DNA of 43,957 nucleotides. Origin: Gracilaria domingensis (lineage: Eukaryota; Rhodophyta; Florideophyceae; Gracilariales; Gracilariaceae). This document shows, piece by piece, positions 2,854-33,347 of this stretch (positions are counted from its first letter, which is position 1; every line of letters begins with the position of its first letter). A model generated the notes under the pieces. That model saw only the letters and a program-made list of their open reading frames with translations. It was not told where the DNA came from and ran no database searches. The position numbers and the translations under genes were made by a program. The stretch covers positions 31,720-75,676 of the forward strand of contig VCMS01000469.1 of assembly GCA_022539475.1 (NCBI GenBank), read 5' to 3'.

Positions 2854-5190
2854 TTGACGCTGTTGACACCCGAGGCGTGGTTGCCTCGCTCCCGGGTGAA
2901 AATCCTCTTGAGGAAAGACGCCACAGTCGCGAATTCGGAGCACCTCGGTGTTCTGCGTCGAGCGTGGATACGAGTAAGGAATAACCGGATCCCGGACCGA
3001 ATCATGGTGATGGCTAAGCGAAATTATAAGGTGTACGCTGACCTCGGCTTGAGCCCCCAGTTTATGGTGCGTTACCTGACTGTACTAGACACAGGTGCAG
3101 GTCCGAACTTCATCGTGGAGTGCCTTCTCACACCGCAGTTGCGGGAACGTATGCGCCGCAGCGTGCTCCCTGATGTCGCTGACGCGAATAACAACCCGTT
3201 AACAACGGTGGGAACAATCGACTTATTCCTGCGTTTGGGAACTTCCGCGGTGAGGGTCGACTTCATTGTTTGTCGGTCATTGGCTGCCCCAGTCATTTTG
3301 GGTTGCGATTACTGCGACAGGTTTGTCGATGCAATCAGGCCCCGCCTCAGGCGTGTAGAACTTAGCGATGGTTCATCGGTACCGATCGTCTGTCTTCCGC
3401 TGAAGCGGTCATCGCGGAAGCAAGTCCCACTGCCTGCTGCGCAGCCCCCGACACCGGCGACGCGCGAGTCCACCAAGCTCCGCGTCGCTTCGACAATTCG
3501 CATCCCGCTTGAGTCCCAAGTTATGGTGTCAGTTAATTCCCGTCAACACGGTCTTCGGGTTATTCAACCACTTACCTCGTTGTACGAGAAGTGCCAACTC
3601 GCTGTCGCGAATGGTGTTGTGCAAGTCACACCAAATACTCCGTTTCGGATACTCGTTGCCAATCTCGGCAGCAGCCCCCAGTATCTGGTGAAGAACCAAG
3701 TCATTGGGTCTTTGACAGCGCAACCACTCGCGATGCTTCCGACGAAGATGACGGCTGCCGATGTCCTCGGACTAGTTACCTTCGAAAAGGACGTCGCCTC
3801 ATCTAAGGAGGGGGAGGGAGCTGCAGTTACTGCTGTTTTCGCGGGTACCAATACCGTCGCAACGGAGAAGAAACCGACTGACTCGGAACCACACCCTGTG
3901 TCAGGGACAGAAGAGCGTAAGCCCACGAGCTGCGACAAGGTTGACCCCTTGAAGGCGCTCGAGGAACTTGATCTCGGTAATGTAACGGAATCGCACCGCG
4001 AACGTCTAAGAGACATGTTAAGGGAGTTTACCCCAATGTGGGATGGATCTCTTAGAGAGATAAATGCAACGGAACACCGTATCGATTTGTTACCGAACAC
4101 GCGTCCGGTTTCACAACCCCCTTACAGGGCAGGACTGAAAGCTCGGGAAGAAGAACAGTTTCAAGTGGATAAGATGCTGCGCGCAGGTGTCATCGAACAG
4201 GCGCGATCGCAGTGGGCATCCCCAGTGCTACTGGCTTTCATAGCCAACGGAACCTGGAGGTTCTGTGTCGACTATCGCCGGCTCAATGCCATGACAGTAA
4301 GAGACGCTTACCCAATCCCTCGTATAGACGAGTGCATCGATTCGCTCGGTGACGCTACCGTGTTTACGGCATTGGATGCCAATTGGGGATACTGGCAAGT
4401 CCCCGTCAGGGAGGAAAAGTGCGATAAGACTGCGTTCGTGTGCCACTGGGGCTCCTACCGCTTCAAGAGGATGCCTTTCGGCTTAACCAACCAGCCCGCT
4501 ACTTTCCAGCGTGCCATCGACATCTTGTTGAGCCGCCTCAAGTTTCGGACCTGTCTCGTCTACCTTGACGATATCATCGTGTTTTCCAGTAATCTGGACG
4601 ATCATCTCACCCATGTCAGGGACGTGATGACCACTCTGCGTGATGCAGGAATAACCCTCAAGTTGAGGAAGTGTGAATTCTTCACCGACACCGTCAAGTA
4701 TCTTGGACCCATTATCGGTGCAGGACGGCTGAGGATACGAGGAAGCTCGTGTCAAGTCACTCTCCAAGGCGAAGAAACCGCGTACTCAAACGGAATTACG
4801 CCCCTTCCTAGGCTTGGTAACCGTCTACTGACAGTTTGTACCGAAAGTTTCGAACATTGCGGCTCCCCTTAATGCTCTCTTGCGAAAAGTTCAGCCACCA
4901 AAATCGGACTCCTTCACGCCCGCACAAGCGGAAGCGTTCAACTCCTGGAAGGAGGCTGTTACATCAGCACCGATCCTATCGTTACCAAAACCGGGATTGC
5001 CGTTCTCTGTGGACACGGACTCGAGCGACTACCAAGTAGGTTGGGGGCTGTTCCAAACCACTCCCGAGGGAGAACGAAAACCCATAGGGTACTGGTCACG
5101 TTCGCTTAACGTTCATGAACGGAACTACTCCGTTTCGGAGAAAGAGTGCCTTGCAGTCGTATGGGAATTATCCGCCTTCCGTCTCTATCT
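2854..5190 (+). pseudogene. pol: pol (protease-RT-RNase H) of the first Ty3 element, truncated
   Basis: The aspartic protease is marked by LDTGAGPNFI (about 3087-3116) and a downstream VILGCDYC. Reverse transcriptase shows RFCVDYRRLNA, MPFGLTN and the catalytic YLDDI (about 4561-4575). The RNase H region shows VDTDSSDYQVG and ERNYSVSEKECLAVVW. Compared with the second element, two bases are lost near 4739, and TGA (4829-4831) replaces an Arg codon, so the chain breaks between RT and RNase H. The coding similarity stops at about 5190, before the later RNase H motifs. This is a defective copy. Integrase and chromodomain are missing because the element is cut at the transposon junction. Confidence 0.92.
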
Positions 5191-5217
5191 CGTCTGTGTT
5201 TCCGGGATGCTAGTTTA
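5191..5217 (+). repeat. Left terminus of the first DNA-transposon copy (junction with Ty3)
   Basis: CGTCTGT, nine variable bases, then GATGCTAGTTT, starting exactly where similarity to Ty3 pol ends. Nearly the same 27 bases (about 20 identical) start at 31627, exactly where the other Ty3 element loses similarity. A transposase of the same family begins about 2 kb downstream in both places. I infer that this is the transposon end. The matching right end was not found. Confidence 0.55.
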
Positions 5218-7325
5218 CAGTCCAAAAATCGCAGAAAAAAAATGCTAGTATTTCATATGTTAAATTGCGATTAGTGGAAGTTTGAAGTGGAAGAAAAACT
5301 AGAGTAAACTCCAGATTCTGCAGTATGGTTTGAATGGAATACTAGGCTTGACTTTCAAACTACGAGCTATTTCTAAGAAATATGAAAGTTGCTAGAATCT
5401 TAGAACTAACTTCCATTTCTGCTAGTTCACTAGTACTACCGGTCCATCGGTCCAAAAGAGCCATCGGTCCGAAAGCACGGTGGCAGTTCCATCCTAGCAG
5501 AAATGAATGTTATTGATGCAGTATTGCAGGTTCATGCAAGGTATAGCACCACATGAAAACAGGTCCAAACCGGTCATCGTACACATCTCCACCCTACTTC
5601 CCACCCCCGAAAATCCATTCCGACATCACCAAAAAAGCCCTGTATCATTTGGAAGACAATTACGCATCGAAACTCACCGAATAGATACCCTGAAAATGCT
5701 CTCGTTGCCCTCAATGTAGACATCCCCTTGGTTAGTTTTCTGTTTCCTAGTCTCTTCGTCCATCCCAACATGGAAATAAACACACTTACCTCAACATTCT
5801 TCGCCATCTTCATCTCCCCAACTCCCTCGAAAACATCTCATCTGCACAATTTCCAGCACCGCCACCGATCCATTGCCATCCAACGCACCTGCACATGCAC
5901 AAACACAAGCTAGTCAAATACTCCGTTAGATACTTTTCCATCTTCGAAACTTTCCCAAATGCACACTTATCTACTTACCATGTGTCCCTACCTCACCAAT
6001 AGCCTCAAAAACACGAATCAAACTGTCCCGAAAATCCTGCACATACACATAAAGCAGTAACCAGTTAGCATTCTTATCAGAACTCGAACAAAAACATCTC
6101 GTACTTACCCCGACGCGTACCTTGCCATCCACACCGAACTCTGACGAACAAGAATTTGGAGTAATGGCAAAGAATGATTACCTGGAAGGCCTCCGTTGAG
6201 GAATCATTCTTTCCATGACCCCAAACTCTTGTTCGTCAGAGTTCAGGGTCATTAGCATGATTCCTCTAGAAACCAACCACCCAGCCACATCGTAACCATT
6301 CTCCCTTATCCACTTCACCTCAAAAAACACGTTACACATAGGAAACGAAGTAAACCACCGCCTTCCGCCCCATCTCCATTCCACTTCCAATCCAAAGATC
6401 CCGCACGCTATAACTCCATGAACCTATCGCGCTCATTCTCGCAAACAGCCCCCGCCGCGCAGTCACATATCCCGTTAGCTAACTCTTCGCTCTTCGAAAC
6501 ATTCTCAAATGAACACTCATCTACTTACCATGTGTCCCCTACCTCACCAATACCCTCGACAACACGCATCAAACTGTCCCAAAAGCGCTACGCATACGCA
6601 TACAACATTATCCAGTTAGCATTCACATCAAAAGTCGAACAAAAAGCTTCTCAAACTTACCCATAGCCCCCGCCCAAGACATTCACGCTAACCTGCTTCC
6701 AAATCCTCTCCGTGCGTCTCGCAAAATCACGTAACGTTCCGCAGTTAGACTTCGCAAACACCATCAGCATCAAAAGGTCTCACTTACATTGAACCCATTC
6801 AGTACGCATCCCAAACATAAAAAACCTGAACTACTCCGGTTCCAATCCAAAGATTCCGCACGCTGCAGCTTCATGAACCTGTCGCGCTCATTCTCGCACA
6901 CAGCCGCCGCCGCGCAAAAACACTGGTCAGAGTCGCGCATATTCGCCATATCAAACATTTACGCCTCGACTTACCTGTTTCGCACGTTTCACATCCCAGG
7001 ACAGGACTGTGAGAGGCAACGCCACTGAAGCTCACAGAAGAAGAACTTCAATCGCAGCCACACTGTACGTCAATCATCACCGGCCGCGTAATGCGCCGTC
7101 CGCGAAAATTTTTGAAAGTTGTGTTCAGAAAAGTTGAAATCCTCCCCACACTGAAACATGCAGGAAAGGTACGTAAACGATCACGTGCACGGTGGAGTTG
7201 GTGGCGTATAAACACACTTTATACTCTCCCCTGCAGGGTGCTCCAAGATTCTGCGCCGCACCATCACCACCGACCTCCCTCTGCAAGCAACTTCCCTCAC
7301 TACTTTCATACCCTCTCACCCAACC
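5218..7325. repeat. Non-coding, repeat-rich leader of DNA-transposon copy A
   Basis: No convincing gene in 2.1 kb. TGCTAGT recurs near the left end (about 5208, 5243, 5418). A perfect inverted pair CATTTCTGCTAG/CTAGCAGAAATG sits at 5414-5425 and 5494-5505, enclosing two copies of CCATCGGTCC (5444 and 5461). There are two diverged direct repeats: about 5935-6115 with 6485-6680 (sharing CATCTACTTACCATGTGTCC-like text), and about 6388-6460 with 6840-6915 (sharing CGCGCTCATTCTCGCA). A TATA-like GCGTATAAAC lies at about 7204, some 120 bases before the transposase ATG. Subterminal repeats of this kind are typical transposase-binding arrays in CACTA-type elements, but that role is inferred. Confidence 0.6.
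6136..6244. repeat. Long hairpin (about 43-bp arms)
   Basis: Left arm 6136-6179 starts GAACTCTGACGAACAAGA. Right arm 6202-6244 is its reverse complement with a few mismatches and a one-base length difference. The loop is about 22 bases. It lies inside the leader of transposon copy A. It could be a small MITE-like insertion or a structural element; no flanking duplication was resolved. Confidence 0.8.
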
Positions 7326-10300
7326 ATGCACAACTGTTGTTTCCCCCGCTGCTCATTCCATACACAGTCCCTCGCCTCTCTCGCCCAGCATCAGAAGCGA
7401 TGCAGACACAGGAATGACCCAAACCCGTTTCTCACCCCAACACCTCATCGAGGATCCCACTTCCCTCCCCGAATCAAGCGCCGCAGACTCAACAACACCG
7501 AACCCCCTTCCTTCCCCCCTCTAACCGCCCGTCCGATAACGTAGCACTCGCAGACGAAGACCTTATCTCCAGGAACAGCTTGCTCTCTCCCTACGCTCAT
7601 CCGACGCAGCACAGATACTCAGCCCGCATCACCAACTCGCCTCCCAGTCCCCTTCCACAGGCTCAGGTAACGCCTTCTCCCCCTCTCCACCCTCACAGAA
7701 AGACCACATCCATAACCTCGTCACCTACATATCCTCCATCGCCACAAAACTCGGAAAGCGTTCTGCTGACGAGCTCATCAACATTCTCAAGCAATCCACC
7801 TTTCCCTCTTCCCTCTTCCAGACCTCCATCACTTCCGCTGCCGAATGTCTGAAACTGCACTCCAAAATCTTCGAAGAAACAGTCAGCTCCATTGGGTTCA
7901 CCTCAACCATCATCCATGACAAAAACCATAACTTCTCCGCCACCCTCTACCTCAGGGACCCCGTTCAGGTTCTCCTACAACAACTTCGTCTCGCATCCCA
8001 CAGCAACTCCTTCTTTCATCCAGTCAAACAAGCTTCAAGAACAGGAACTACCGCAATCGCACACCCTATGGCTTCGGAACTCGGCCGCCATGTCGTCCCG
8101 ACTATCAAGAGGCATATCATGCATTCTCCGGACCCCGACGTCATCTGCACGATCCCAGTATCACCGGCACAGACTCGTTCGTCGGCCTCGTTCAACTATA
8201 TTCAGACAAGTCTTCCACCTCTTTGAAAAGTTCTTCTGTTACGTCGTATCCTCTTCACATCACCCTCCTCAATTTCAATGACTCCTTCCGCAGAAAGTGC
8301 ATCACGCAGAACTACACACTCGTCGGATACATACCCACATCCTTCACCTCCGACTCGTCCTCACTGACACAGATTCCTTGGAAGTCGCTCCCTCAACCCC
8401 CAGCGTGACCCGCATTGTGCGCATGCAGCTCGTCCAGGAGTCCCTAGAAACCATCCTCAAACCTCTGTATCATATCGGTATGAAGGGTTTTCCCTTCCGC
8501 GACGCCAAAGGAGTCCTTCGTCAATGCCATCCAGTCATCTCCAACTACAGCGCTGACATCCCCGAAGCCAAGGACATTCTCGCAGTACTTCATGGCACAA
8601 AGCCAAGCAAACCCTGCCACCGGTGTCTCCTCCCTCGTTCAAAACTCAACCTCTACCAACCTACTCTCACAGAGCGAACCCTCTCACACACTTTGCAAAC
8701 CAGAAAAAGACATGATGACCTACTTCTCGAGGCAGATTCTGCTCTCCTCTCCCATAGACCACGGGTTGCAAGGAACCTCAAAGAAGAAGCTGCAGAACTT
8801 CTCCACTCCACCTCTCTCTCTCCATACAAGTCCTTTCTGGAATCTTACCCTCTTCTCAACATCTCTTCACTGCTCACTCCTTATTCAATCTTCTCCTTCG
8901 AGCCCCTTCACAACTTTCACCTTGGCATCTCTAAACTCATCAAACTCGCCACAATCGAACGCCTGAAGTCCGATTCTCTTCACACTTCCGTGGGCTTCAA
9001 TGGATCCTCCAGGTCGTTTCGGTCCATCAGAACATCTATTCTTACTCACGCCAACTCCATCCTAGCTGACATCGAACGCTCGTTTCCGGCTCCAGGGCTT
9101 CATATTGATTTCTCGACATCTGAAAAGGGTAAGTCTCTCAACGGCTTCTTCACCACTGACGGAATCAGAGGCATGCTAGAAGCAAAGGACTATCGCGCCC
9201 TCGACATGGTCTTCCCTTCATCGGTGCATTCTTCGACCGTTGCTGGGTGAAGTATCTCCCGCCCCAATAACCACCATTTTCACCTCTTACGTCGATCTCG
9301 TCAATAACGTTCTTCACTACCACACTGCCCCAGAATGGACTGATGATCGCTTACGCTCTTTGGAGACTCTCATCAAGAACTTCAAGACTCAAACTGTCTC
9401 AGTTTTGGGTCCATACCAGGCCTCCAACTTTCGTACTCTCAAATTCCATCTCCTGGATCACATCATTCCAGACATCCGTCGATACGGAGGCCTCCATTTC
9501 GGTGATGCAGGTGTGTACGAGCACGCGCATCTCCTCTTCAAGAACCACTACCGCCGTACCTCTCGCAGAAGATCAACTGCGCATAAGGAAACAGTGGACT
9601 CAATCCAAGAGTGCAGGATTTCTTACACTCCATCTCGGTAAGGAAACACTTCTCCATGTCTACCAACTCGGCCAGTCGTTTGTCGCAGCGGTGTCCCTCC
9701 ATGGTTCGTGATGGTAGTTCATTCTCCCTCTTCGACATCATCAGGCCGACAAGTATCTACGGTCCCATCCAAACGTCCCGTCATCTGCTCTCACAGATTT
9801 GTTCTCCAAAACTACATTGCAGTTCATCAACCAAATCTCTCGCGACGCCCTCTCTTCCTTCCGTACCCTAAGCTTAGAAACTCTTCAACCGTTGGACAAC
9901 CCCCATGACATCAAAATCACCGTCGTTAACTCCGCTTACATTGTTTCTGGATTCTGCCCCTCGCTGGATGACTACGATCGTCACTTTCAATGCATTAGAC
10001 TGCGAGAGCCGGAGGTCTCTTTGTGTGAACGTATTTTTGCAACCACTTCTTTCCGCCCTTCCAAGTCCCCAAAATTCTCTACCGTCCTGGTTAATGGAAC
10101 TCCTCTCCCGGTTGTGACTTCCCGACCGCATGGGTATGCAAAGTCTTTGCCCTGGTTCGCTTTAGCAGATGTAACCAAAGCAATTCCGATTCTGAATTTG
10201 CCTTTGTTCGCTTCTTCAAGGTAACGGAGCCGTTGGATAACATTGACGAATCCTTGAACTGCATTTCCCTCCGCTGGGCCACGGATGACGAGGAAGATCA

Positions 10301-10634
10301 CACATTGCAAACCTCCAATTCTCTAAAACGGTCAAAACTGCATCTGTATCCCCATGGTTCGGTCTCGTCCCATTCTCTTCGATCAAAGGCTCGGTACACA
10401 TCCTCCGACAAAACTATCCCGCACGCCCCTTTTTCCCTCCATTGCACTGGAAGTTCCACCGATTCTACATTAACAGATTCTATCGCAATCCCCGAGCTCG
10501 TTTACACTACCATCCAATCACCAAACTTTCGTAACGTAAACCATAATGCATTAGTGACGTTCTATCCATTCTCCTCATGTAATCCTTCTTGCACAGACCT
10601 TTCCCTCACATCCCTCTCTGCAGTTATGTCGTAG
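7326..10634 (+). pseudogene. CACTA-superfamily (Plavaka/Tnp2-like) transposase, copy A, frameshifted
   Basis: Probable DDE/RNase H-fold transposase. ATG 7326 opens directly onto a Cys2-His-Cys zinc finger (CCFPRC...QHQKRC), as in copy B. The chain then changes frame repeatedly. About 7700-8025 reads DHIHNLVTYIS...FSATLYLRDPVQ, homologous to copy B. About 8405-9240 carries SADIPEAKDILAVLHGTK followed by PCHRC, then FEPLHNFHLGISK. About 9240-9640 carries KFHLLDH...IRRYGG...YEHAHLLFKNHYRRTSRR. The H/E/H/K...YR.TS pattern is characteristic of Plavaka/KDZ/Tnp2 transposases. The C-terminal part continues in pieces to about 10634. Several frame changes make it non-functional as written, or reflect base-calling errors. 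Family assignment is by motif memory, not by search. Confidence 0.75.
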
Positions 10635-13096
10635 AACATACGGTCTCCCCGACTGCAGCATCCAACATAGCAATCCAGTACAGCTCCGAGCTTCTCAGAG
10701 ATCTCTCCCATAAACACATCTTCTCGGACAGCAAGGTACATTTCCTTTTCGACGGAATCCAGTAAACCACAGTGCCCACCCGGTCATCATTTCCATGCCG
10801 CGCATCTTCAGCATTCGATGGGCCATTTCTGAACTCTGTTGGATAACTCTGCTGCATGCGGACCCTCACGGTCTTCAGTATACTCTCAAGTGCCAGTGGT
10901 AGATATTTCCCGAACAAGTTGGAGAACAACACTTGTCTCTTACCACCTCTCCCTCGTTCAGACTCTGTCGCGCGAACAACGGACGCTATCCAGGCATCAA
11001 GACGTGCCAGATGCATAATTGTTCCATCCACTGGATCCCTCTCTTCGGTATTCCTCGAACTTGTTGTAAAACGTCGTAGCCCATGAACTCACGCAGCACC
11101 TCCAAGCTCAGGCTGTTCCGAAAAAGCAAGTCACATGGTTCATCTTCGGTTGCATGATATGGGTTAAAGCCCGAGAAACATATATCTTCTACCTTCTGAG
11201 TTCTCCACGACGACAGAATCTCACATCCATTTGCATCTTTGGGTAGGAGTTTTTCACGTACCTCTCTGGTTTGTATTTCATACTTGTTCTGCTCCCTTTC
11301 ATCATTTTTTATCGGGGTCCTTACAAGCATGTCGTAACCTAGTCCCATCAATAACTTCTCCTTCGCATGGCGTTTTCGAACACCTATTGCATCACTTAAA
11401 GCCTGTTTCAACCTTCTGCGCAAACAAATGTCGTGCGTTAACTGTTTCACACAGTCATCTTCCATTTTCATTCCTCGGATAGATTCCCAACGTGGCTTCA
11501 TTACCTCCGTCTCCACAATTTGCATCAACAAATGGTCGCCTCCACCACGTACGGATGGCGTGTACGCCCTCATCTCCATGGCAAGATCCATTGGGCACCG
11601 TGGCACTATCTCCTTCCCATCAACAACCAGCACACTGTCGTCTTTCTCAGGTCCAACTGTCTCACTTCGGTTGCCCCAGTTCCTTGCCGGTATACTCATC
11701 TCGAAGCATAGCTCTCTTGTCTCGTCTTTGGCGTATTGAAGTATGGAGTCATAGACGGTCTTCGCAACACCAACAAACTCGTCGTTCACGTCATTGTTGT
11801 ACCGCTTCCTGCTCTTGTTACTGTCACGTTCGTTCCTTTTCCCTCCACGTCTGAGAGCCTCTCTCAAAGAGTGTATGAGAACCTCTTGTTCTCTGACCTT
11901 AACTCAGTTGCTCTATGTTCTTCTGAGCAAGTCGTACGCTCATTTTCAGACTTTGCTTGTCCTCTATTGTACGATACAGATCTCCCTTCAGTTTCCCGAT
12001 CTTTTCCAAAAGCTCGTATCGCGGAGTAAGGGATTCATCTTCATCTTCTTCCATTGCACCATGCAGGGAAAAGCTCCGTGACAAAGCACCACGATCAACA
12101 TCTTTATCGTTCCATACTTCTCTACGGGCGTTTGCTATGACAGGTTGCCGATCGTTCCCCACCCGTCTATTCTCATTTCCATGGTTCGTCCTTCTTCTGA
12201 CCTGATTGAACCTGTTTCTCTGTGACTCACCTGTGACTGGTGTCGGTTGTATCTCGTCTTCGTCTTCGTCTTCCTTGTGTCTGGACCCAATATGAGGGAC
12301 GGAATCATGCCTGCCTTCGATGGGAGCTATATGCGTTGCATTTCCGGCGTCCACGTTATCGTTCGCCTCCACGTTATCCTTGTCCTCGACGTCACTTGGA
12401 TATCTACTGCGTCCGTGGACTCCCGCTCCTTTCTTCCACTGCCTTTCTTGGCACGAGAGACACCCTCATTCATTTTCTCGTTCCTCTTCACTTTTCTCGA
12501 ATCATAACTGTTACGTTCTGTTCCGGCAGCGCTTCTGGGTATCTCCCTATCCCCAGGTTCGGCTCTAGGTTCGGCTCTCACGATGGCGCAATCCACGGTT
12601 TCCATCTCCGCATTGTCATCCGCAGTTCTCACCTTGTCGAAACAATCATCGATACGAGGACCTTCTGTTCCTCCACTGCCTCTTGTCCTCCTTACATTCT
12701 GACGTACAGCCGTTCTTCTCTTATTTCCTTTCATCGCTTTGACATCTACATTTCCATCATCACTGACCCTTGGCTCTTCCATTGCAGCCATGTGGCGTGT
12801 AACAGGCCCACGCATTGCACTATCCTTGGCTTGAACGGTTTCACTTACTGTGCGTTCCGTAGTGCATGTGGAAGCTCCTGACCTCCTTCTCGGTTTTACT
12901 TCCGATACTGTAGATAAGATTTTGGTTTGCGAAGTCCAGCACGAGGTGCTCGGCCTCGGCTACCTCTCCCATTAGTAGCACTACTTCGTGAGACGACCGC
13001 GCTCCTACGTTTGGCCACCCCAGTATCCCAGCGCTCCGGCGGTACCGATGCCTTTCGCGGTTTACCACCTGCATGCTCCGCACGTTGAGGGGCCAT
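10624..13096 (-). CDS. Unknown coiled-coil protein, tail to tail with the transposase; frameshifted
   Basis: Five consecutive minus-strand open stretches (13096/13083-12841, 12815-12327, 12372-11899, 11867-10986, 11031-10624) overlap or nearly abut in changing frames, and read best as one ~820-aa gene broken by small indels. The N-terminal third is basic, with Arg/Lys clusters, then acidic runs (EDEDEDE). About 12020-11850 is heptad-like (YELLEKIGKLKGDLYRTIED, continuing to SLREALRR) and probably a coiled coil. The C-terminal part (11800-10630) looks globular with no family I recognise. Its 3' end overlaps the transposase end by a few bases, a compact arrangement that may mean it is the element's second protein, as TnpA-type proteins are in CACTA elements. 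That role is a guess. Confidence 0.55.
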
Positions 13097-13557
13097 CCGA
13101 GATCCTTCGGCCTTCGTGCGCGGTAGTATTACGGAACAGATATAGAAACGTGAACGATACTGAAGGTATATATTGAGAGTGATATGTGAGGGTCACGTAC
13201 TCGGTGTGCAGGACTGATATGTGAAGGGGAGGGGAATTTAACCTCGTACTGCATATATGGAGAAAAGCATTCTGCAGCATTTGTGGCGGATCGGCATTCA
13301 ATTTTTGGACCTTTCCCGGGTCCATATTCCGGACTTGGTCCGATTTTCCCGGATGTTGCGCCTGCATATACAAGTACGGCACTTTCAACGATCTTTCATA
13401 CCACTATATGCATCAATATGTTACACAGTACAGCTTAGTGTACATATGAGTAGTATTTCTGCAATCATAGCACAAGTGTTCAATACAATTTACTTCAACA
13501 AAAAGCTTTTCTCACTACATTGAGCCCATACGAAGTTCAAGGACATTGTCTGAGAAC
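13097..13557. other. Intergenic region upstream of the coiled-coil gene
   Basis: No supportable gene. It is flanked by the 3' end of the methyltransferase-SET gene (13558) and the 5' end of the coiled-coil gene (about 13096), both on the minus strand, so it should hold the latter's promoter. It contains a stretch rich in CCGG/CCCGGG (about 13312-13355) but no clear TATA box. Confidence 0.5.
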
Positions 13558-16500
13558 CTAGGTTAACCTTTCCCAAGGATATGTGGGTCCATAGTCAACG
13601 TAAATTTCGTCGTGCTCCTTAATGTCCCTTGAGGCCGTGACTACGAGGAGTCTGTAGTTCTCCAAAAGCCCCAAAGTTGTAGCCTGATACTCTGTGGGCT
13701 GGCGAATGAATACATTTGGTTTGCGTGCCATGTTAGAATCCATTTCTTCCAATTCCTTGTCCTCATCACCTTCACGATATGACGCGTCATTGATATAGCC
13801 CGCTACACAGAAAGGAGCAGGAACTATCCAGGCATGACCAGCGTTGACTTCAGTATCATAATGCGGAGAGTGTTGTACATTTGCCCCTTCACCCTCACTT
13901 GCATGCAATACTTCCTGAACCGAGATGCAGTGGCCCCCAGCATTCCGTCTCCATACGTCAAATGTGTGGTATTGCGTCGGCTTAGATCATGATACACCAA
14001 GGTCCCATAAAAGTATCCAATAACCTCCCCTTCGGAAAACGCCCTACTCGTAAATACTCCATTTCCACTTGCTGCATGTTTGATATTCGACTTCTTCACA
14101 TAGAGCCATAGCGATGTCGCCTCGACAGAGAGTAAAGTGTGACTGTCCAACGTAGTCATCTTCCTTGTAAGGCAAGTGGCCACTCATGGAACGGTTTCTC
14201 TTTGTACGTAGTGATAAGACCAGGTTCATTCCAATAGGTGGATAGGTACGACATGATATGGAATGGGAAAGATTGGTACGATGGGAATCCCTTGGGTGCA
14301 TTCCATATAGTCGAAGTCTTTCGTTTCCGTTCAGGAAATTTGGCATCCACCACATAAGACGCTTGAACTACCTCATTCGTAACCGGTTCTTTCATCTTCA
14401 ATTCATTGCGCCACACCTTTCTTGCGTAATGCACAATAGCATTGTGCTTGGCATGAGAAAACACTGCTCATCTTGCTCACATCCAATGAAACGCCGAGGC
14501 CCCTCAATATCCATACATGCCAGCGCGCACGAGAACGTCCCGGAGTAGAGATCAACCACAACATCCCCGGGATTCGAGAACCTCGCTATCAGCTCCATCA
14601 GTAGCTGCCTCGACTTTTGTTCTGGACGAGCCTTCGCGGTTCGAATTCTTCTACCACTCTTCACTCTCCATCGGAGACTCTCCCCAGGCGTAAGATTTGG
14701 AACCTGGTCAATGATAGAATAGTGCCCAGGATAGCGAGCTGAAACGTAGTTGAAGTTCTGATAGTTCACCATTACCTTCTGTTCCGCGTACGGGTTTCCA
14801 TTCCTCACGCCATGCACGGCGTACTCCGTCGCCCCAAACAGGCGAGTAGTATTACGCGCAGGGTTCTTCAAGGGGTTCGAACGAGAACGAATGAAGTTCA
14901 TGGGCGTCGAATCCACTAAGAATGATGCGGTTTTCTTTCCGCTTGCGTCCTCCGACTTGTGCTCTCGCAAAATCTCTTCCCAGTCTCCAAACTGGTCGAT
15001 ACTGCAGAACAAAACGAAATGTCCTCCTGGTCGAAGCATGGATGCCATGATGTCCGCAGTATTGTCCATATCATCGTCAGCCAATCGTCGTACTCGCTGT
15101 CGCGGATGCCATATGGTGGGTCTGTGAGCACGAACTGAACGTTGCCTTCCAAAGATGTATCCGATGGGAAGATAGTACCATGGGCCTCCACCAGTTCGTC
15201 ATATCCGACACAATGCATTGAGAATTGCTTCTCCATGCTTCCTCGCACCACATCTAGAGCATTTAACGTGCGCGTGTCATCAAAGTCATGAGGGGGAGAA
15301 CCCCATCTGGAACGTTATCTTTCGCCCCAACAGAGGCACCAGGTGTATCACCTTCTTCATTGTCGCTATCGAGGATGACGATGACATCGGAGTTAACTGA
15401 GCTTTTCCCTGCGGCGTTCCTCTTGGAGGAGCTCGGAATCTGTATCGAGTCCTCAACCTTAACCGTGACGGTATTACTTCCTCCATCCTGCCCTGAAGGA
15501 GCGGCCCTAGGGATAAGTCGAGATGGTTGGAAGTTATGTACAGACATCGCTTGACGAATAGGAGACACGTACTCTTCGGAGAATACATTGAAACGGGGTG
15601 GTACTCGTGCGGGGCGGCCAGGTCTGAAGCTTTCCAACAAATTCCATCTTGACGTTGGGGACATTTTGTATAGGAAGCCATTCAACACAATCTTGCTGAA
15701 ATCTGCAAGAATTCCTTTGCCAACTCCGTAAGTTGGCGTCGATAGTATCCGGAAGAGTATGAACCCAAGAAACGGTGTCGTTCACATCCAACGTGGGTTT
15801 CATTCTTCCCCCAACGTATGAAAAGCTGACTCCGGACTGTACCCAACAGAGCGGGATTCAATGACATGGAACCCAAGCGACTTCTTTTCTACAAGCAGGT
15901 ATGGCAGCAACATCTGCTCACCATCACCAAAGCCTAAGGTTGAGGCAAAGAAATCCCTCCCTTACAAATCGTTTGCACTGCATGTGCCATCCGTCTCCCG
16001 TGCGTCTCATTCGAAGCTATGTAGTCGTCGACGAACTGCACAGCTCTATGGGTTCCCTTCCCGGTCCTTCCTCTCTTCGCCGCTGGGAGATTTTCTCCGA
16101 AGTTATATGCTTCACGAAAGAGAGATAGAGTAACTGCTGAAAAGAGTGGGAGGCCCAATCCTGAACGTAGTTCTCTTCGTCTGCTTACTGCCTGGACCAT
16201 GTCGTTTGAAAAGTCATTCCAGAAAGCCCGTTCTATGAACGAGTTACCGTTGTCGACATCCTTTTCAAGACTCCAGGTAAACAAATCTCTCACGCGCTGA
16301 TCAGAATTCTCGTCGTCTAGATGAGTGATACGCATATATTTGTAGACCCTGCTCAGAAAACGCACGTCCAGACAGATCTTCGTGAGTTCTTTTGCGGAGT
16401 AGTTTTGGAAAGGACCCTTGACCGCAGTGGTGATGAACTCTCGTGCACATGCCAGGTGTTCACGGTTTGATACAGCGTATTCCACAACTTCCGTGTACCC

Positions 16501-16713
16501 AACTTCACGCGGATTACCAGTACCACTTCTTGAAGCGGCATACGCATCTCGCAACTCAATGAACAACCCCCAACATTTCAAGAAACGCGTTGCCATGCTG
16601 GCTGAATCGAACGACGCGCTAGAGGATGCGCTAGAGGATACCGTGCCGTGGTTCTCATCGGCCAGCACACTCTGCTTAACAGTCCGAGGAGCGTCATTTC
16701 CGGTGGACATCAT
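13558..16713 (-). CDS. Beta-class DNA methyltransferase fused to a SET domain (frames broken by one-base deletions)
   Basis: Predicted ~1,050-aa dual chromatin/DNA methylating protein. ATG at 16713 (MMSTGND) is preferred to the longer open frame starting 16914. Order: unknown N-terminal domain (16650-15960); linker with a SUMO-interaction-like motif VIVILDSDNEE (about 15395-15360); methyltransferase with catalytic FVLTDPPYGIRD (about 15145-15110), MLRPGGHFVLFC, and late SAM-binding GDVVVDLYSGTFS (about 14570-14530). That order (IV before I) defines the beta class, making N6-adenine or N4-cytosine. SET follows (14140-13560): SGNGVFTSRAFSEGEVIGYFYG, YINDA in place of NHSC, and EIYVDYG. The pieces join in nine places by adding one base, near 15960, 15808, 15732, 15711, 15294, 15081, 14464, 14163 and 13918. 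It could be two genes, but the 14464 break lies inside continuous coding. Neighbour: divergent ParB-like gene. Confidence 0.8.
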
Positions 16714-17378
16714 GTAAGAACTGAGAATCGGAAAGGACGCGAAGTAAACGAGTATTGTGAAACGGTAGAAGTTTCGGAGATGTTTAAATCGGTGGGAAGC
16801 GTCGGAAACGTCGGGAAGCGTCGGAAACAATGGTGGAGAGCGCGGTTGCGACGGATTACGAGAACTGAGCGGGTAATGAAATAGAGAGACGAGAGTGGGA
16901 TCTAAACACATCAAACCTGTGGGGCACCTCAGTATGTGCAGTGCATTATATGTCTAGTATGTAAAACCAACGTAGAAAACACTGGGTTCGTACATCTTTG
17001 AACATCGCCCGAGCGCCGTGTGGGAACCGCGGTTCGCCGAGTTCATAGCCGAGATCATAGCTATGATCTCGGCTATGAACTCGGCCAGCCGCGGTTCCCA
17101 CACGGCGCTCGGGCGATGTTCAAAGATGATGAAAGGCGGGGACAGTGGTCAACCAGGACGGAATCAGACATTGATCCAACCATTTATAACCATCAGGAAC
17201 TGTACCCACACTGCTCACGTGGGCATTGCAGCCGTTTTGAACCTGAGTGGTTGCGTCCATTGTGCTCACGCGAGAAAGGGCGGAGATTCGAACACGAGCG
17301 GTTGCAACTTCACGGGAGCAAACGTACGATTTGAACAACACCAGGACTCGTGTATATCACACACACTGGCACCATATA
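16714..17378. promoter_or_regulatory. Divergent promoter region with central palindrome
   Basis: The region separates the minus-strand methyltransferase-SET gene (start 16713) from the plus-strand ParB-like gene (start about 17379). It includes the 136-bp palindrome at 16993-17128. An AT-rich stretch (about 16928-16965, GCATTATATGTCTAGTATG) is a candidate core promoter. No gene of its own is supported. Confidence 0.45.
16993..17128. repeat. Near-perfect 136-bp palindrome (68-bp arms)
   Basis: The arms are 16993-17060 and 17061-17128, with the centre between 17060 and 17061 (GAGATCATAG|CTATGATCTC) and no loop. I found only two mismatched base pairs, both around 17034-17036 opposite 17085-17087. 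The outer ends are CATCTTTGAACATCGCCCGA and its complement. Loop-free palindromes of this size extrude as cruciforms and are normally unstable, so its preservation between two divergent genes is notable. Confidence 0.97.
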
Positions 17379-20300
17379 ATGGATATGAGGGGACTGGGAA
17401 AGGGTCAAATGAGACGCTCTCGAAAGGTGAGAAAGCCTCGACGAACCATGGCACCACAACTTTGGAGCGGGACCAAAAATGCTGAACCGAACGCAGCGAC
17501 GGGGAACGCATCCACAGCTATGATGTCGAAGCCCGCACCAGGCGAAGAAGTGACCTTGTTGTTGGGAGGGGCAGGAGGGAACAAAGCAGCGATTGGGAAA
17601 GCTGTTCTCGTTGAAGTGGACGCTGGTGGAGGGAAGACAACGTTCAGAAGAGAAATGCATGGACATGCTCTGCAGGGAAAACCAGGGGAAGATGTAGTTG
17701 GTATATGGCAGCGAAGATATCTCATGAGCTTGACACTCCCTATCCCTATCCCTCTAAGTGTACCGATGACGATTCTGTTCCGAAGACATTGAAGGACATG
17801 AACAGGCCCGGTTTCTACGCCTGGGACCTGAACTTAATGTCTAAGGTGGGTGACGTCGTAAGCGCTGATGAAGGGGACAAGGGTGCTCCGAGTTCCAAAT
17901 TCGTCGCCCCTGAGAAGCCATCGAATACTGCTGGGAAACGGGTGCGAGTGGTAGAACCTAAAACTCCATCCAGTGCCCGAAAGCGAATACCGATGAAAGT
18001 GGCTCATGTGAAAACCCCGTCGAATGCTAAAAAACCCCAAGGCGGGAAACAAGCGCCAGTACCAAAGCTGAAAACACCATCGAACGTTCACGGTGGTGGA
18101 AAGCAGATGCAAGAATTCAAGATGACCACGACCCCAGAGAGTGCTGTATCGGCATTTAGTAAACAAACTGCTACGATTGTGCAGTCTGGAGCATCGACGA
18201 ACAGCACTGCGGAAGCTATTACTAAGGCTGGAAATCGCAGTGGAGTGACAATGGAAGTGAGTGACGTGGATGAAGATGAAGACGAAGACGTGGTTCTAGT
18301 GAAGGAAAGCCTTGGAAGCAACGTCAATGAACTCTTTGATGAAGGTGATGTGATACCTTCTGATGATGTCGATACGAGTTTAGCGAGTTTGGTATTTGAC
18401 TTAGATCATTACGAGTATGTGTCTGTTGAAGTCGATATTGAGCTCATTCAAGTTCCGGAAATGACTATGAGAGGGTTGTTCCGGCATCATGTCGAGGCTC
18501 TGAAAGAAGAGATTGGACGCAAAAGCTTCTTACAGCCACTTGGGACCATGAGCGTTGCTGTTCTGTCTCAGGATGTGTCCGAGAAGGACATAGTGCAGAA
18601 CAATCGCTTGAAAGTGAATTGTGTGCTGATTGATGGAGCTCATCGTCATGTAGCACTCAAAGAGCTCTGTGAATCTATGCCCAACATTAGAAATCTATGT
18701 GGAGGTCTTTCTGTTTCGCTGTGGAAGAGAAAAGATGGAGAGAAGATGACCACGAGGGAAATCTTGAGCCTTGGCAATGTGCTAAACGATGGATTGGAGC
18801 AAGCTCGTCTTATGGGTTTTGCTGACAAGGTGCATTCTATTGTGTCATTTATAAGCGTCCTGGTTGAGGAAGAGAAGAAGGACTTGAGCAAGATGACGAG
18901 GACCTCTGTCGCAGGTGCACTAAGTGTTTGCGGTATCATTGGCCAGTACAATATCAAGCATTTGGCAAGATTTGCAGAGATGGGGTTGAAGGTGGCGAGA
19001 AGTCCTGGATTGCTGGAACATTTGGAGCGGATTTGTGGGGACTACCATGAGATTGGAATTTCTTGTATATCAAGTGATGAATTCTTTACCATGGATGAGC
19101 ATACAACCCACTTCACGCTCGACGCTCTGGTTGCATATTTTCCAGGAGGCGAGTGTCGAAACTGACGGGTCGTTTTGAAGACGTACGCAAATACTTCTTT
19201 ATCTGCTGCAGGAGGCTTCAATCTTTGGCAGAGGAGCTTTCGAAGAAGAAGAAAGTTACATTGGAAGAAGCGTATGCCATGAAGGTGGAAGTGACAAAGT
19301 TTGAAATGCGCACCGTTCGTGAGTACCTTGCAACACAGGCAGCACGAATTGAAGTACCTTCGAATAAGAAGCTCTGGGAAGGAAGGATTTCGAGAACAGT
19401 CTGGATTGCTCGTGATAAGCTGGCAAAGAATTTAGGGGTGGATATGTTGAAACCTGCCACTGGTACTACGCCGACTGAACCACAGTCTGAGACCAAAGCG
19501 GTAGACGAGTCTACAACGCAGAGAATGGCCACACGTTCGGCAAGTAGGAAGGCCAAAGCGCCAGTGCGCAAGGGCTCTAAGGACTCTGATGTAGAAAGTG
19601 AAGAGAATATGCCATCGAAGACAAGAAGCATGAGGAGTTCAAGACGAAGCCGTCGACGAAGGAATGCAATGAGAGACGTGAACCCTAATCAACGGAAGAA
19701 GTCAAGGACGGAGGGTATTCAATCTGTTCAGGATGAAGTTATCAGTCATCTGCGGAGTCTTGGTGCGAAGGGGGTGACAAACTTGTTGAAAAGTCATCAG
19801 ATATCCATTGGCAGCGACACAGACTCAGATGGAGTACCAATTGTGGTCTCACAAGCAGAGGACACTGACCCGTTCGATTACACAGTACCGCAGGTGTTGG
19901 CGCCAAGTCTGAAGAAGGCTGAAGAAGTAGCATATGAAGGTGACGATTCGTGGCTAAAGTTGGTGAAGACCTTACCAAGCAAGTGGCCGACTGGAGTGGA
20001 GAATGTCATTAAATCTGTGTACCCGTGGATGGGTGCGATAAATCTCCAGAAGCAACACCTAGGCCACTTGTTGGAGCCCAAGGACTTTGAAAGTGTGCAC
20101 CATGCAGTCTTTTGGCATGCAGCGTATCATGGCCATAAACTCCTGAACGCGGCAATGGGAGGCATGGAGGTCGACGAGAAGACGTTATGGGGGGATGCAC
20201 TGAAGAACGACTCTCTTGCGTATGTCTATTTTGTGAAGAAGAACGTCGAGCTTCGAGACAGAGGTTTCTGTATTCTGGACGGCTTTGCATCGGATGGAGA

Positions 20301-20812
20301 GTTGGTGAAGCTGACAGAGAGTTTGAGTAAGCTCATTGACGGGATGTTAGTGTGGAATTACTGGACTTCTTCCGAAGGGATTCGCGAGGGCTCCAGACCT
20401 TAGGATACCAGAGAACCGAATCACAAGGATACTCATCACGCAGGATGGTGGGAGATACATGACTACGAAAGAGCAATAGTGGGATGACATGGAGCAAGCC
20501 GTAGAAAACATTGCTTTGTTGAAGAAGCGGCTTTTACTGGATGGCCCGACTGGGACAGATATGTGCTTTTATGGTTTTACAGATAAAGGGTGGAAAACGA
20601 GAGATGTATGCCGCCGAGAAGGGGGGAGGGTTTATGCACTGCATTGGATGCGCAAGCGCAGCAGTTACATACGGATTCCCGACTTGGCGAATGAAATAAG
20701 CTGCGAAGAAAAGAAGAACCCGGTACTTTATGATGGTGTCCGAAGTGTGTCAGCTTTCCAATTTGGTATTGTGAAGGGTCTATACACAATACGCAGTTAC
20801 TCCAAGCATTAG
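17379..20812 (+). CDS. Large ParB-like-domain protein (broken by indels; probably runs into the gap)
   Basis: ATG 17379 opens on a basic leader. An N-terminal module follows (IGKAVL...FRREMHG...GEDVVG, about 17550-17710), also present in the paralogue at 21813-23055. A frame change near 17730 leads into 17705-19165: a Lys/Pro/Ser-rich linker with repeated K(L/V)KTPS(N) motifs, an acidic DEDEDEDVVLV stretch, then a ParB/sulfiredoxin-like fold (about 18430-18680) with the diagnostic VLIDGAHRHVALKEL. Another one-base loss near 19157 continues it into 19153-20403, including RRSRRRR and a segment GFCILDGFASDGELVKL that faintly resembles the start of 2-oxoglutarate dioxygenases. Further breaks lie near 20380 and 20478. 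The last open frame ends at 20812, 40 bases before the gap. ParB-like domains bind or cut DNA and some hydrolyse CTP; the role here is unknown. Confidence 0.7.
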
Positions 20813-20852
20813 AAGGTTTGTCCAACGGCGGATGTTTGTGAGAAGTTTTTCG

Positions 20853-21578
20853 NNNNNNNNNNNNNNNNNNNNNNNNNNNNNNNNNNNNNNNNNNNNNNNN
20901 NNNNNNNNNNNNNNNNNNNNNNNNNNNNNNNNNNNNNNNNNNNNNNNNNNNNNNNNNNNNNNNNNNNNNNNNNNNNNNNNNNNNNNNNNNNNNNNNNNNN
21001 NNNNNNNNNNNNNNNNNNNNNNNNNNNNNNNNNNNNNNNNNNNNNNNNNNNNNNNNNNNNNNNNNNNNNNNNNNNNNNNNNNNNNNNNNNNNNNNNNNNN
21101 NNNNNNNNNNNNNNNNNNNNNNNNNNNNNNNNNNNNNNNNNNNNNNNNNNNNNNNNNNNNNNNNNNNNNNNNNNNNNNNNNNNNNNNNNNNNNNNNNNNN
21201 NNNNNNNNNNNNNNNNNNNNNNNNNNNNNNNNNNNNNNNNNNNNNNNNNNNNNNNNNNNNNNNNNNNNNNNNNNNNNNNNNNNNNNNNNNNNNNNNNNNN
21301 NNNNNNNNNNNNNNNNNNNNNNNNNNNNNNNNNNNNNNNNNNNNNNNNNNNNNNNNNNNNNNNNNNNNNNNNNNNNNNNNNNNNNNNNNNNNNNNNNNNN
21401 NNNNNNNNNNNNNNNNNNNNNNNNNNNNNNNNNNNNNNNNNNNNNNNNNNNNNNNNNNNNNNNNNNNNNNNNNNNNNNNNNNNNNNNNNNNNNNNNNNNN
21501 NNNNNNNNNNNNNNNNNNNNNNNNNNNNNNNNNNNNNNNNNNNNNNNNNNNNNNNNNNNNNNNNNNNNNNNNNNNNNN
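20853..21578. other. Assembly gap (726 N)
   Basis: All bases are N. Open frames crossing it are artefacts. It probably hides the 3' end of the ParB-like gene and anything lying between it and the second ParB-like gene. Confidence 1.
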
Positions 21579-21812
21579 AGTATGCAAGTGCCGTGAAGCT
21601 TCCAGAAATCGAGCTCCCATCAAATCCGTCTGAGTATACTAGGTACAAAAACTTTCATGTCATGGAGGTGAACTAGCAATTATGTCCGCCTTCACTCATT
21701 CTACAAATTCTGTAGTATTGCTTGAATAAATGAAAGTATGGTATCCAAAAATTTTTTTTTTTTGGCTTGCACATAGCCGTACATTCAATTCTTTGCCACA
21801 TTTTTTAACGAT
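21579..21812. other. Intergenic sequence right of the gap
   Basis: Short AT-rich stretch with a run of T (about 21751-21764). It lies downstream of the minus-strand ParB-like paralogue, and no gene is seen. Confidence 0.5.
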
Positions 21813-23055
21813 TCAATCCACAAAATAGCATTCTTGCCTCCTTACATAGCGTTCCGGAAACACAGACGTCGCTGCCAAATATTGTATAGCTTTCAGACGA
21901 TGCAAACCATCTACAATGAAGCACTTCTTCGTTAGGCGTCCCTTGTCAGTATCCCTCTCTCCCGTAGTAGCATCTTGTAAGGCCACCACTGGAGAACCCA
22001 TCCACTGCAATATCTCCCGCTCTTCCATACTCTTCACAAGGGCTTCAACGTGGCGTTTACTTACTCCACGGAGTAAATTGGGCCGATTGTCCACCAGAGT
22101 GATGTCAACAGTAACGACAACCATCCGGTAGTGATTGAGGTTCACCTTTGGTACCTTCTGGCGAATTCGTCTGTACGTCTTGCTCCGAGTAGGTGTCCCT
22201 TGTGTTCCAGACCGCTCGCCAGAAACACTTGAACGTGCCATTCTTGCGGACAGAAGCACAACGTCATCGTCCTGCTGCTCCGCAGTTTCTGGTGCAGTTT
22301 GGGGTACAGATGGACCAGCTCCTTGTGTGGATTGCGCATCCGCGTCTGGAAGGGGACCTTTCATAATCTCATCTTCCTCTTCTTGCACAGCCTTCCCGTG
22401 CTGAACCCTCTGTCTCGACGCAGAAATTCCCCTTGTGTCGACGGTCTGATTCATCGCAGGAGATGCCCTTTTCGACGCAGTGGGCTTCGTAGCGGAGGTA
22501 GACTTTGTTTGACCTGTCCGCTTCGTACGTAGGGATGATCTCGTCTCCATAGACCGCTTCGTAACAGACGACGGACGTGCCCGCGGAGGTGCTACTGATG
22601 CGCTACCTCTCGGTGTTGATGAACTTCGAATTGGCTCCGTGCGGCTTGTCGGCGTCATCACCTCACTCATAGCGCTCACCGTTCGTCGCTTGGACGCTGG
22701 AATGCTGGCTGCCACCGGTTCCATCATTTTCTCATCCCAAGGAGCGGCCGTCCGGAGATCCTGGATGTATTGGAAGATCCAGGCCCTCCCCCCGGTAAGG
22801 GTAGAAAGTCTGACCGCTTCGACTGATGAGAATATTATGAACCACCACAAGACCTGGGTCCAATTGCTTCCCGTGCAACTCGCGGCGTAGAACACTTCCA
22901 ATTCCATGCAACAACGCTTCCCCGACTATCACCTTTCCTTCATCCTCAATATCCATCTGCAGAGAAACCCGCATTCCACCTTGCAATAATCGAGTGCTCC
23001 GCCGAGTGCGAGGAGTCACGCTTTGCGTACGCTTTTGAACACGAGTTGGCTTCAT
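21813..23055 (-). CDS. Second ParB-like-domain protein (paralogue of 17379-20812), one frame break
   Basis: ATG 23055 (MKPTRVQKRTQS, basic) leads into a module reading VIVGEALLHGIG, RRELHGKQLDPGLVVV and FYPYRG. This lines up with the N-terminal module of the large ParB-like protein. The frame changes between about 22830 and 22750 (indel or small intron) into a basic, Ser/Thr-rich linker. An acidic-hydrophobic EQQDDDVVLLSARM follows. The ParB-like domain comes last (about 22150-21850), with LLRGVSKRHVEALVKSMEE and the signature FIVDGLHRLKAIQYL. The protein stops about 20 residues after the domain, so it lacks the ~600-residue C-terminal half of its paralogue. Placement on the other side of the gap in opposite orientation suggests local duplication. 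Confidence 0.7.
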
Positions 23056-23086
23056 GTTGAACAGCTATTGCAGTGAAAGGTGTATA

Positions 23087-23375
23087 TCAACAATACGCTC
23101 GCTCTGGACGATACAAGAACGGATGCGAGCCTTTAAAAGGCGACTTACGCTGGGCACCCCCGCTTTCGGCAGCTCCTCCCAGCGCACTGCCAGTCTCGTC
23201 CGTGTCCTGTCCGTGGCCGCTCGCACACTGATTGTACGCTTTAGAGTCGTGGAGCTCGCGCAATGATGACTCACGCGAGCAATGGTCGCGTTCTCTAATC
23301 ATGCTCTTCAAATGCTTTGCATAGTAGTCAAGAGTACCCTCATTCACTTCCATGTACAGCCCACTCCCGGAAATA
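23087..23375 (-). pseudogene. Remnant of an unknown gene cut by LTR insertion
   Basis: Minus-strand open frame reading SGSGLYMEVNEGTLDYYAKH, then a Ser/Gly/Gln-rich tail. Upstream it continues into the LTR at 23376, so the real 5' part has been cut away. A strong intron donor (GTAAGT, first base at 23148 on the minus strand) and a possible acceptor (CAATAG ending at 23065) would give an 84-base intron leading into the ParB-like gene. Joining them does not keep that gene's frame, so I treat this as a separate remnant. No family recognised. Confidence 0.4.
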
Positions 23376-31626: not shown

Positions 31627-31654
31627 CGTCTGTCTCTTGCAGATGCTAGTTTTT
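31627..31654 (+). repeat. Left terminus of the second DNA-transposon copy (junction with Ty3)
   Basis: CGTCTGTCTCTTGCA followed by GATGCTAGTTTTT starts on the base after Ty3 similarity ends (the codon for the first Cys of CDFCDRF, 31626-31624). It matches 5191-5217 at about 20 of 26 positions. As there, a related transposase lies about 2.0 kb downstream in the same orientation. Confidence 0.55.
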
Positions 31655-31659
31655 GGCGA

Positions 31660-31759
31660 GGGTCGTCCAGAAATTGGCAAGGGTCGTCCAGTAAATTTTT
31701 TGAAAAAATATCGAGATCAATTATTTCAAAATTTGCAGATAATTGCTTGGGTCGTCCAG
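31660..31759. repeat. Three copies of GGGTCGTCCAG near the transposon end
   Basis: The perfect 11-mer occurs at 31660-31670, 31681-31691 and 31749-31759, all in the same orientation, separated by AT-rich spacers. Subterminal direct repeats near the end of a CACTA-type element are expected transposase-binding sites. They are not seen at the corresponding place of copy A. Confidence 0.75.
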
Positions 31760-32052
31760 AATCTCTGTGGAGTAAATACTGGGGGGTTTTCCACTCGTGC
31801 TAGTTCTTTAGTCGAGGGCTAACCGTATTTCGCGAAGTCTAGGTTCAGTTTCCATTGAGGTGCACATTACACGATACCTTCTGCGGAATGATACCCTGCA
31901 ACGCATGGAATACTAGTGCTAGTACAGATGATCCCCATTATGAAATCATACCGTTTTATTCGTATCTATTCTTCTATCGACCGCTTTTGCTAACCACTAC
32001 TTCGCTATATTACAGGTACCATTTCCCCATAGTGGAGCGGGTGTAGGCGCAA

Positions 32053-32205
32053 TCTGCGGCAGATGCCGCAGACTGCACCTCCACCATAGTGCTGGATCGG
32101 TAGAACACATACGCACTCCGAGAGGATGAGGCGCGAAGCGCCTCATCCTCTCCGTTCCTCATGTAGGGAACCATGCCCAGATGCATGGTTCCCTACTTGA
32201 GGAAC
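32053..32205. repeat. Cluster of three adjacent hairpins
   Basis: (1) TCTGCGGC, loop AGAT, GCCGCAGA at 32053-32072. (2) 15-bp perfect arms at 32120-32134 and 32138-32152 (GAGAGGATGAGGCGC and complement) with a three-base loop. (3) 23-bp arms at 32154-32176 and 32183-32205 (GTTCCTCATGTAGGGAACCA...), one mismatch and a six-base loop. Hairpins 2 and 3 are one base apart. The function is unknown; structured subterminal transposon DNA is plausible. Confidence 0.9.
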
Positions 32206-32246
32206 CTGCACCTGCAACTCGTGAGCTACGTCCGCATCAAAAGTCA

Positions 32247-33000: not shown

Positions 33001-33275
33001 AGCTAGAGCCTATGGCGCAACGAAATGAACTATTGGTCGCGTACTTACAGTCGTCGGTTTGGGTTACCGGGTTCCCGTTTTCACCCTTCAACTCGTTCTA
33101 TATCTTGAACAAATAGAAGAAGTTGAGGGTGATTAGCTTATTTCCTGCCGTTTCCATGTCGCAGAGCGCGAAGAAACGCGGTGAGGATTGGTTAGTTTAG
33201 AGCAAAGATACGTGGAAGGATATGGAAGAACGTACGAAAAGACTGCACGGAATACATCCCTGAGATACGGATGAC

Positions 33276-33347
33276 TCCGTCCTACTTCTTCCGCCCTCTA
33301 CTTTATGGAGCCTCCATAAAGTGGAGGGCGGGAAAAAGTACGACGGA
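33276..33347. repeat. Hairpin with ~35-bp arms
   Basis: TCCGTCCTACTTCTTCC...CTTTATGGAG pairs with CTCCATAAAG...GTACGACGGA around a one-base centre at 33311, with a few mismatches. It is about 370 bases upstream of transposase copy B. It is a possible transcription or recombination signal; nothing more is visible. Confidence 0.8.

Follow-up and report, generated by a model that had tools for sequence, protein, structure and literature searches.

A Plavaka-type transposon of the red alga Gracilaria domingensis carries a DNA methyltransferase-SET fusion gene

INTRODUCTION

Can a single protein carry both a bacterial-type DNA methyltransferase and a SET domain, and what kind of gene would encode it? 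The question is raised by a 43,957-nucleotide stretch of the Gracilaria domingensis genome (here referred to as the window), in which a preliminary description had placed the motifs of a beta-class DNA methyltransferase (MTase) and of a SET domain on one stretch of the minus strand. It joined the two into a fusion across one-base frame breaks, the key one near position 14464, and named the rotifer N4CMT protein as the closest known idea. We analyzed this gene, its copies elsewhere in the genome, and the element in which it lies. The features of the window are collected in Table 1.

Table 1. Features of the window (positions in the window; + and - denote the strand)
Feature	Position	Strand	Basis or remark
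Complete copy of the family A transposon, 16,678 bp with its 726 N	5191..21868		Terminal inverted repeats (TIRs) at both ends; long colinear matches to C12, C42, C281, C22, and C266
Left TIR, core CGTCTGTGTTTCCGG	5191..5212	+	91 matches genome-wide
Right TIR, core CGTCTGTGTTTCCGG	21847..21868	-	Inverted repeat of left end
Plavaka transposase, frame-broken; domain piece 8297-9250	7892..10224	+	PF18759, E = 5.7e-15
ORF2, frame-broken in this copy; L014 has it as an open frame of 861 aa (P0005)	10624..12815	-	Conserved in family C
MTase-SET fusion gene, frame-broken in this copy	13558..16713	-	Profile scores and open copies
Beta-class N6_N4 DNA methyltransferase domain (DPPY, DLYSGTFS)	14398..15317	-	Profile score; P0001 residues 591-822
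SET domain (GNGVF, YFYGTLVY, GYINDA, EIYVDYG)	13558..14100	-	P0001 residues 950-1109, SET E = 2.6e-6
Palindrome between the divergent genes, 68-nt arms, 97% complementary	16993..17128		Sequence
Putative ParB-like N terminus and 2OG-Fe(II) dioxygenase C terminus, frame-broken, enters N run	17705..20852	+	Match to P0004
N run inside element, 726 N	20853-21578		C12 carries ~3.4 kb at this place
Second reverse transcriptase piece	2854-4872	+	
Family C ParB-like piece	21869-23375		Adjoins family A right end
Ty3/gypsy polyprotein, open 1694-aa frame	26596-31680	-	Reverse transcriptase, RNase H, integrase, chromodomain
Piece of second Plavaka family (C)	31627-37308		Left end 31627; transposase 33622-35361 (E = 6.7e-17); repeats 36885-37308
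Probable host gene, ATP-grasp ligase-like	37435-38753	+	
Probable host gene, von Willebrand factor A domain protein	39190-40200	-	E = 3.7e-7

RESULTS

The fusion is a single open frame in natural copies

The motifs DPPY, DLYSGTFS, GNGVF, YINDA, and EIYVDYG are all found on the minus strand within the fusion gene of Table 1, as had been described. A window piece at 14398-15084 (minus strand) matches N6_N4_Mtase with an E value of 1.4e-11, above the Pfam cut-off, and a piece at 13558-13908 (minus strand) matches SET with an E value of 8.5e-4, which taken alone is under the cut-off. Because the window copy is frame-broken, the fusion cannot be proved from this copy alone.

Across the genome searched (77.9 Mb, 680 contigs), the MTase piece gave 150 scored matches among 578 candidates, about one-fifth of them at 96 to 99% identity. 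In the same genome, 14 matches to the phycobilisome-linker family PF00427, four of which lie on contig C680, point to a red alga. The copy at C12 (73841-77194, minus strand) holds one open frame of 1118 aa (P0001) in which N6_N4_Mtase (E = 1.4e-14) and SET both lie above their cut-offs, and its fusion gene is 99.25% identical to that of the window across 3341 aligned columns. Open fused frames of 929 to 1121 aa, with both domains over the Pfam cut-offs, occur in natural copies of the same genome, including representatives of family B (P0002, from C157) and family C (P0003, from C56). For P0001, P0002, and P0003, respectively, the scores were 55.0, 53.7, and 55.7 bits with PF01555 (cut-off, 26.7 bits) and 28.2, 23.1, and 32.0 bits with PF00856 (cut-off, 22.4 bits), so the profile searches that had been suggested place both families above cut-off in the open copies. 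With P0003 as the query, 13 of the 51 matches listed are full-length and stop-free; with P0001, 2 of the 50 listed (C12 and C157) are full or near-full length and stop-free, and those in C25, C294, C525, C233, C399, and C22 span residue 31 or earlier to residue 1118 with one stop each. Among 15 aligned members, N6_N4_Mtase reaches an E value of 1e-3 or better in all 15 and SET in 11. BLASTP found 12 database relatives at 25 to 39% identity, which keep the MTase and, in most cases, SET too. The MTase-SET fusion is real, and in natural copies it is one open frame.

Compared with C12 across 13558-16920, 13 single bases are missing from the window, of which 12 fall inside 13558-16713; no extra base shifts the frame within its fusion gene. 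Across 9.4 kb of the element, 31 single bases are missing in the window and 2 in the reverse direction, with 50 substitutions; over the following 3.9 kb, the single-base losses number 23 versus 11. Because only 9 of the 31 missing bases belong to runs of at least three, pure homopolymer error was rejected as a full account of the breaks. The break near 14464 was located correctly: a base missing there in the window is present in all 14 other copies compared, so that among these copies only the window has lost it. Other copies are broken in this region too: 3 of the 14 (C299, C453, and C387) lack a different base ~45 bases away. The loss at about the same place in these three could reflect decay that they share or a read error that recurs. 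The C143, C293, and C8 copies may also carry breaks, farther off than the short stretches fetched from them, as their match to the MTase piece continues in a single frame. Two neighboring genes, with the fusion an artifact of frame breaks, would be compatible with a window copy broken near 14464 and elsewhere and with three other copies broken close by, but the fused frame is single and open in copies from three families as well as in relatives from the database. This refutes two separate genes at the sequence level, and we give that explanation next to no credence. The frame breaks of the window look like long-read deletion errors and/or recent decay rather than gene boundaries.

The MTase is CcrM-like and the SET domain has an altered NH motif

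Motif IV precedes the S-adenosylmethionine (SAM) motif I in all 15 aligned rows, with the motif IV variants DGPY in P0014 and DPPF in P0003 and P0009, and four residues (D597, P599, D787, and G791 of P0001) are invariant across the 15 sequences. The MTase fold matches the beta-class bacterial methylases CcrM, M.BceJIV, and MboIIA, with CcrM the closest, and both N6A and N4C enzymes are among the fold matches. By the usual rule, DPPY points to an N6-adenine target. These features mark the protein as a CcrM-like beta-class MTase, for which an N6-adenine target is predicted because of its DPPY motif.

In the SET domain, the Asn of the NH motif is kept and the His is replaced by Asp in 14 of the 15 sequences, and for this reason SET activity is uncertain. 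The end motif reads Tyr-Gly in 11 of 15 and keeps Tyr in 13 of 15; P0017 is without both. No SET protein appears among the 50 fold matches listed for the fusion protein, because the MTase occupies them. Among Pfam families, Chromo has no match at an E value of ≤1 in P0001 to P0003. An estimate of dN/dS gave a dS of 2.7, near saturation.

The gene belongs to a Plavaka-type transposon

The fusion gene almost certainly sits in a TIR-bounded, Plavaka-type DNA transposon of G. domingensis, roughly 16 to 23 kb long. A host gene is ruled out by the TIRs, the multiple copies, and the transposase. The genes are ordered Plavaka transposase (plus strand), ORF2 (minus), MTase-SET (minus), palindromic spacer, and ParB-2OG (plus). 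A genome-wide search for the TIR with up to two mismatches found 91 termini, versus none for the reversed control. Ten pairs of ends picked from these matches span 13.2 to 23.1 kb, and among the matches listed, the MTase lies inside at least seven of them, Plavaka inside at least eight, and ParB-2OG inside at least five. Together with the window, these pairs gave a sample of 11 copies, in which identical 2-bp flanks are found in 6 (C25, C96, C120, C202, C266, and C277) and differing flanks in 5 (C12, C140, C233, C293, and the window); the probability of 6 matches by chance is 2e-5, for a 2-bp length chosen after seeing the data. The sections of PMC12730594 cited here give Plavaka families target duplications of 2 bp or 2 to 3 bp, with other terminal letters.

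PF18759 gave 123 scored matches among 672 candidates genome-wide, and an open-frame copy of the Plavaka transposase (L009) matches it with an E value of 4.8e-24. By its transposase, the element is thus assignable to Plavaka. The termini of PlavakaA and PlavakaB (TGT..ACA or CATCA..TGATG) are absent, and because its own read CGTCTG..CAGACG, it is placed outside both named lineages. ORF2 has no convincing family match, though it is kept between families A and C.

Family C carries the same gene set as family A, with identities of ~30 to 48% across the family: 47% for the transposase, 37.5% for ORF2 (480 columns), 34% for MTase-SET (whole alignment), and, in the partner protein, 30% for the ParB-like part and 48% for the dioxygenase part. 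By sequence comparison, both architectures (MTase-SET and ParB-2OG) are conserved in distant relatives. In C12, the right end of the element directly adjoins a dioxygenase gene that belongs to a copy of family C.

Around the element, the window holds pieces of other mobile elements and probable host genes (Table 1).

Two candidate sources of the fusion were rejected. For a viral origin, a scan of viral contigs yielded 45 loci from 188 pattern stretches, whose listed matches cover the MTase only; they fall within residues 279-572 of P0006, with none on the SET part. Of the 45 loci, 25 were examined for a specific phage donor; their MTases differ in type, and none could be named as donor. The phage MTase loci L070, L073, L083, and L088 match ParB_N with E values of 1.9e-5 to 2.1e-7, three of the four above cut-off.

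The partner gene and the palindromic spacer

The divergent partner gene is open over 1071 aa in L011 (P0004), of which residues 7-377 correspond to window positions 18029-19141 and residues 377-952 to 19138-20850. Its dioxygenase part has an HxD...H...R motif and, in the relative P0022, a 2OG fold; the 50 matches listed for P0022 are 2OG enzymes other than TET, with which TET is still compatible. Pfam at an E value of ≤10 gave nothing for five of the six partner relatives scanned and only weak unrelated matches for P0026. The N terminus has a DGxHR motif, and its first viral fold matches are ParB/Spo0J, with an E value of 2.3e-4 but TM-scores of 0.12/0.40. The PHROG ParB match is weak (E = 0.018), Pfam has no ParB match for the partner protein, and comparing profiles with those of phage ParB gave no significant result. 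We therefore call this part ParB-like, on the strength of the motif and of a fold with low TM-scores. Most of P0004 used as a query found no match at an E value of ≤1e-3; with the family C partner as the query, 11 proteins were recovered, one of them 98% identical and from G. domingensis. Searches of solved structures with the queries A3 and A4 yielded no meaningful match to the partner.

In the C12 copy, the spacer between the two genes contains nested inverted repeats. The corresponding spacer of family C (L018, 2048-2812), also between divergent genes, has five palindromic units of ~67 nt (GTCGTGTTAGGGTA/TACCCTAACACGAC), which recall clustered binding sites. The spacer palindromes are candidate binding sites for the ParB-like protein.

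DISCUSSION

A proposed role and its alternatives

The gene content, the termini, the many copies, the open fused frames, and the conserved active-site motifs are observed directly. The explanation that we favor as probable is a Plavaka-type transposon whose divergent MTase-SET and ParB-2OG genes act on its own chromatin. The ParB-like protein would bind the palindromes between the two genes, the MTase-SET protein would mark the element's chromatin with 6mA and with histone lysine methylation, and the dioxygenase, as a possible eraser, would strip or further modify a mark. The net effect would be that the element stays expressible, an anti-silencing role that we predict tentatively, with slightly less than even confidence. 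We count as support that several eukaryotes have 6mA and H3K4me3 together (PMC12695648, in the part cited), that fungal CcTET oxidizes 6mA, and that SET or TET genes are known as cargo of other transposons (both from the cited sections of PMC12730594). The two marks need not be coupled, since blocking H3K4me3 with inhibitors in Acanthamoeba barely altered 6mA (PMC12695648, same part).

No C5 DNA methylase (PF00145) was detected in the assembly, in a search that detected 10 of 14 controls, all from prokaryotes, and therefore 5mC silencing, the usual opponent of anti-silencing enzymes, may be absent. Cytosine methylation assays are reported for Gracilaria dura and Gracilariopsis lemaneiformis in the relevant excerpt of PMC9861306. 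A search for MT-A70 gave no matches, and its control was likewise silent. It is conceivable, though we think it unlikely, that in an alga without a detectable C5 methylase the transposon brings a complete epigenetic kit, consisting of a writer of 6mA and histone marks and a palindrome-loaded, ParB-like dioxygenase clamp that edits marks. If so, the element would be an autonomous chromatin domain, and one protein would write both DNA and histone methylation. We know of no other single protein that does so.

The same enzymes might instead control transposition, with the element's own MTase marking the ends or palindromes and so timing the transposase after replication; SET would act on the nucleosomes of the ends. 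Dam times some bacterial elements after replication, and CcrM is a cell-cycle DNA methylase; here, the MTase shares one TIR-bounded unit with a transposase, and its fold is closest to that of CcrM. However, the 22-base terminus contains neither GATC nor GANTC (known target sites, from which that of this enzyme may differ), nothing links the MTase to the element ends, and the SET domain and the dioxygenase are poorly accounted for, which leaves this explanation rather improbable. The fused protein might also put repressive marks on related or rival transposons and thereby limit copy number. According to the cited part of PMC8885841, rotifer N4CMT places 4mC at transposons and is linked to silencing. 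Families do meet in this genome, where one copy of family A directly adjoins a dioxygenase gene of family C. The large number of copies, some of which are recent and open, speaks against such self-limitation, and we consider it quite improbable.

A different doubt concerns the enzymes themselves: the MTase half could be structural or inactive, or SET could methylate a nonhistone protein, for instance the transposase or the partner. The change of the NH motif to ND in 14 of 15 sequences fits this idea, as does the fact that the substrates of SET domains cannot be read from sequence. It is countered by the invariance of D597, P599, D787, and G791 and by the match of the whole MTase fold to known methylases, and we judge it very unlikely. 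An element acting on its own chromatin remains our preferred explanation.

Comparison with known systems

Transposon-borne epigenetic enzymes are already known as a kind. Retrotransposons have captured C5 DNA methylases, which resemble the present gene in being carried by transposons and differ in being 5mC enzymes rather than SET-fused amino-methylases. The bacterial enzymes CcrM, M.BceJIV, and MboIIA share its fold and motif order but have no SET domain, and their identity to the MTase of the fusion is 20 to 22% (VIA rows). Phages have ParB-N6_N4_Mtase fusions (the cited part of PMC12704722; here, L070, L073, L083, and L088), which likewise place both domains on mobile DNA; there, ParB and methylase form one protein, whereas the transposon has two divergent genes, each with a different second enzyme. 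The preliminary comparison with bdelloid rotifer N4CMT holds insofar as both join a bacterial beta-class amino-methylase to a chromatin module in a eukaryote. It fails in that N4CMT, as presented in the cited part of PMC8885841, is a host gene with a chromodomain reader, whereas ours is a transposon gene with a putative SET writer and no chromodomain match. In the open literature, covered by titles and abstract openings, we found no fusion of a DNA amino-methylase with SET and no ParB-2OG transposon protein; the surveys of Iyer and colleagues (eukaryotic adenine methylation; TET/JBP-linked transposons) could already mention them.

The coupling of 6mA with H3K4me3 is described as unsettled in the cited part of PMC12695648. 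Fused writers in many near-identical natural copies make it possible to test directly whether DNA and histone methylation can be written as one act, and they also let one ask whether transposons thereby control their own chromatin. The nearest relatives in kind are the TET/JBP-carrying transposons of fungi, Plavaka among them (Kojima 2025, PMC12730594), which share epigenetic cargo, a Plavaka transposase, and a 2-bp target site duplication. In the sections cited, those elements are fungal with TET/JBP cargo, whereas the present one is from a red alga, carries MTase-SET and ParB-like/2OG genes, and has other termini. Oomycete HarbingerS and MuDR transposons, cited in the same sections, resemble it in their SET methylase cargo but have other transposase families, and no fused DNA methylase is mentioned in those sections. 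With the element described here, the epigenetic enzymes carried by transposons, known as TET in fungi and SET in oomycetes, come to include an amino-type DNA methylase and reach into the red algae.
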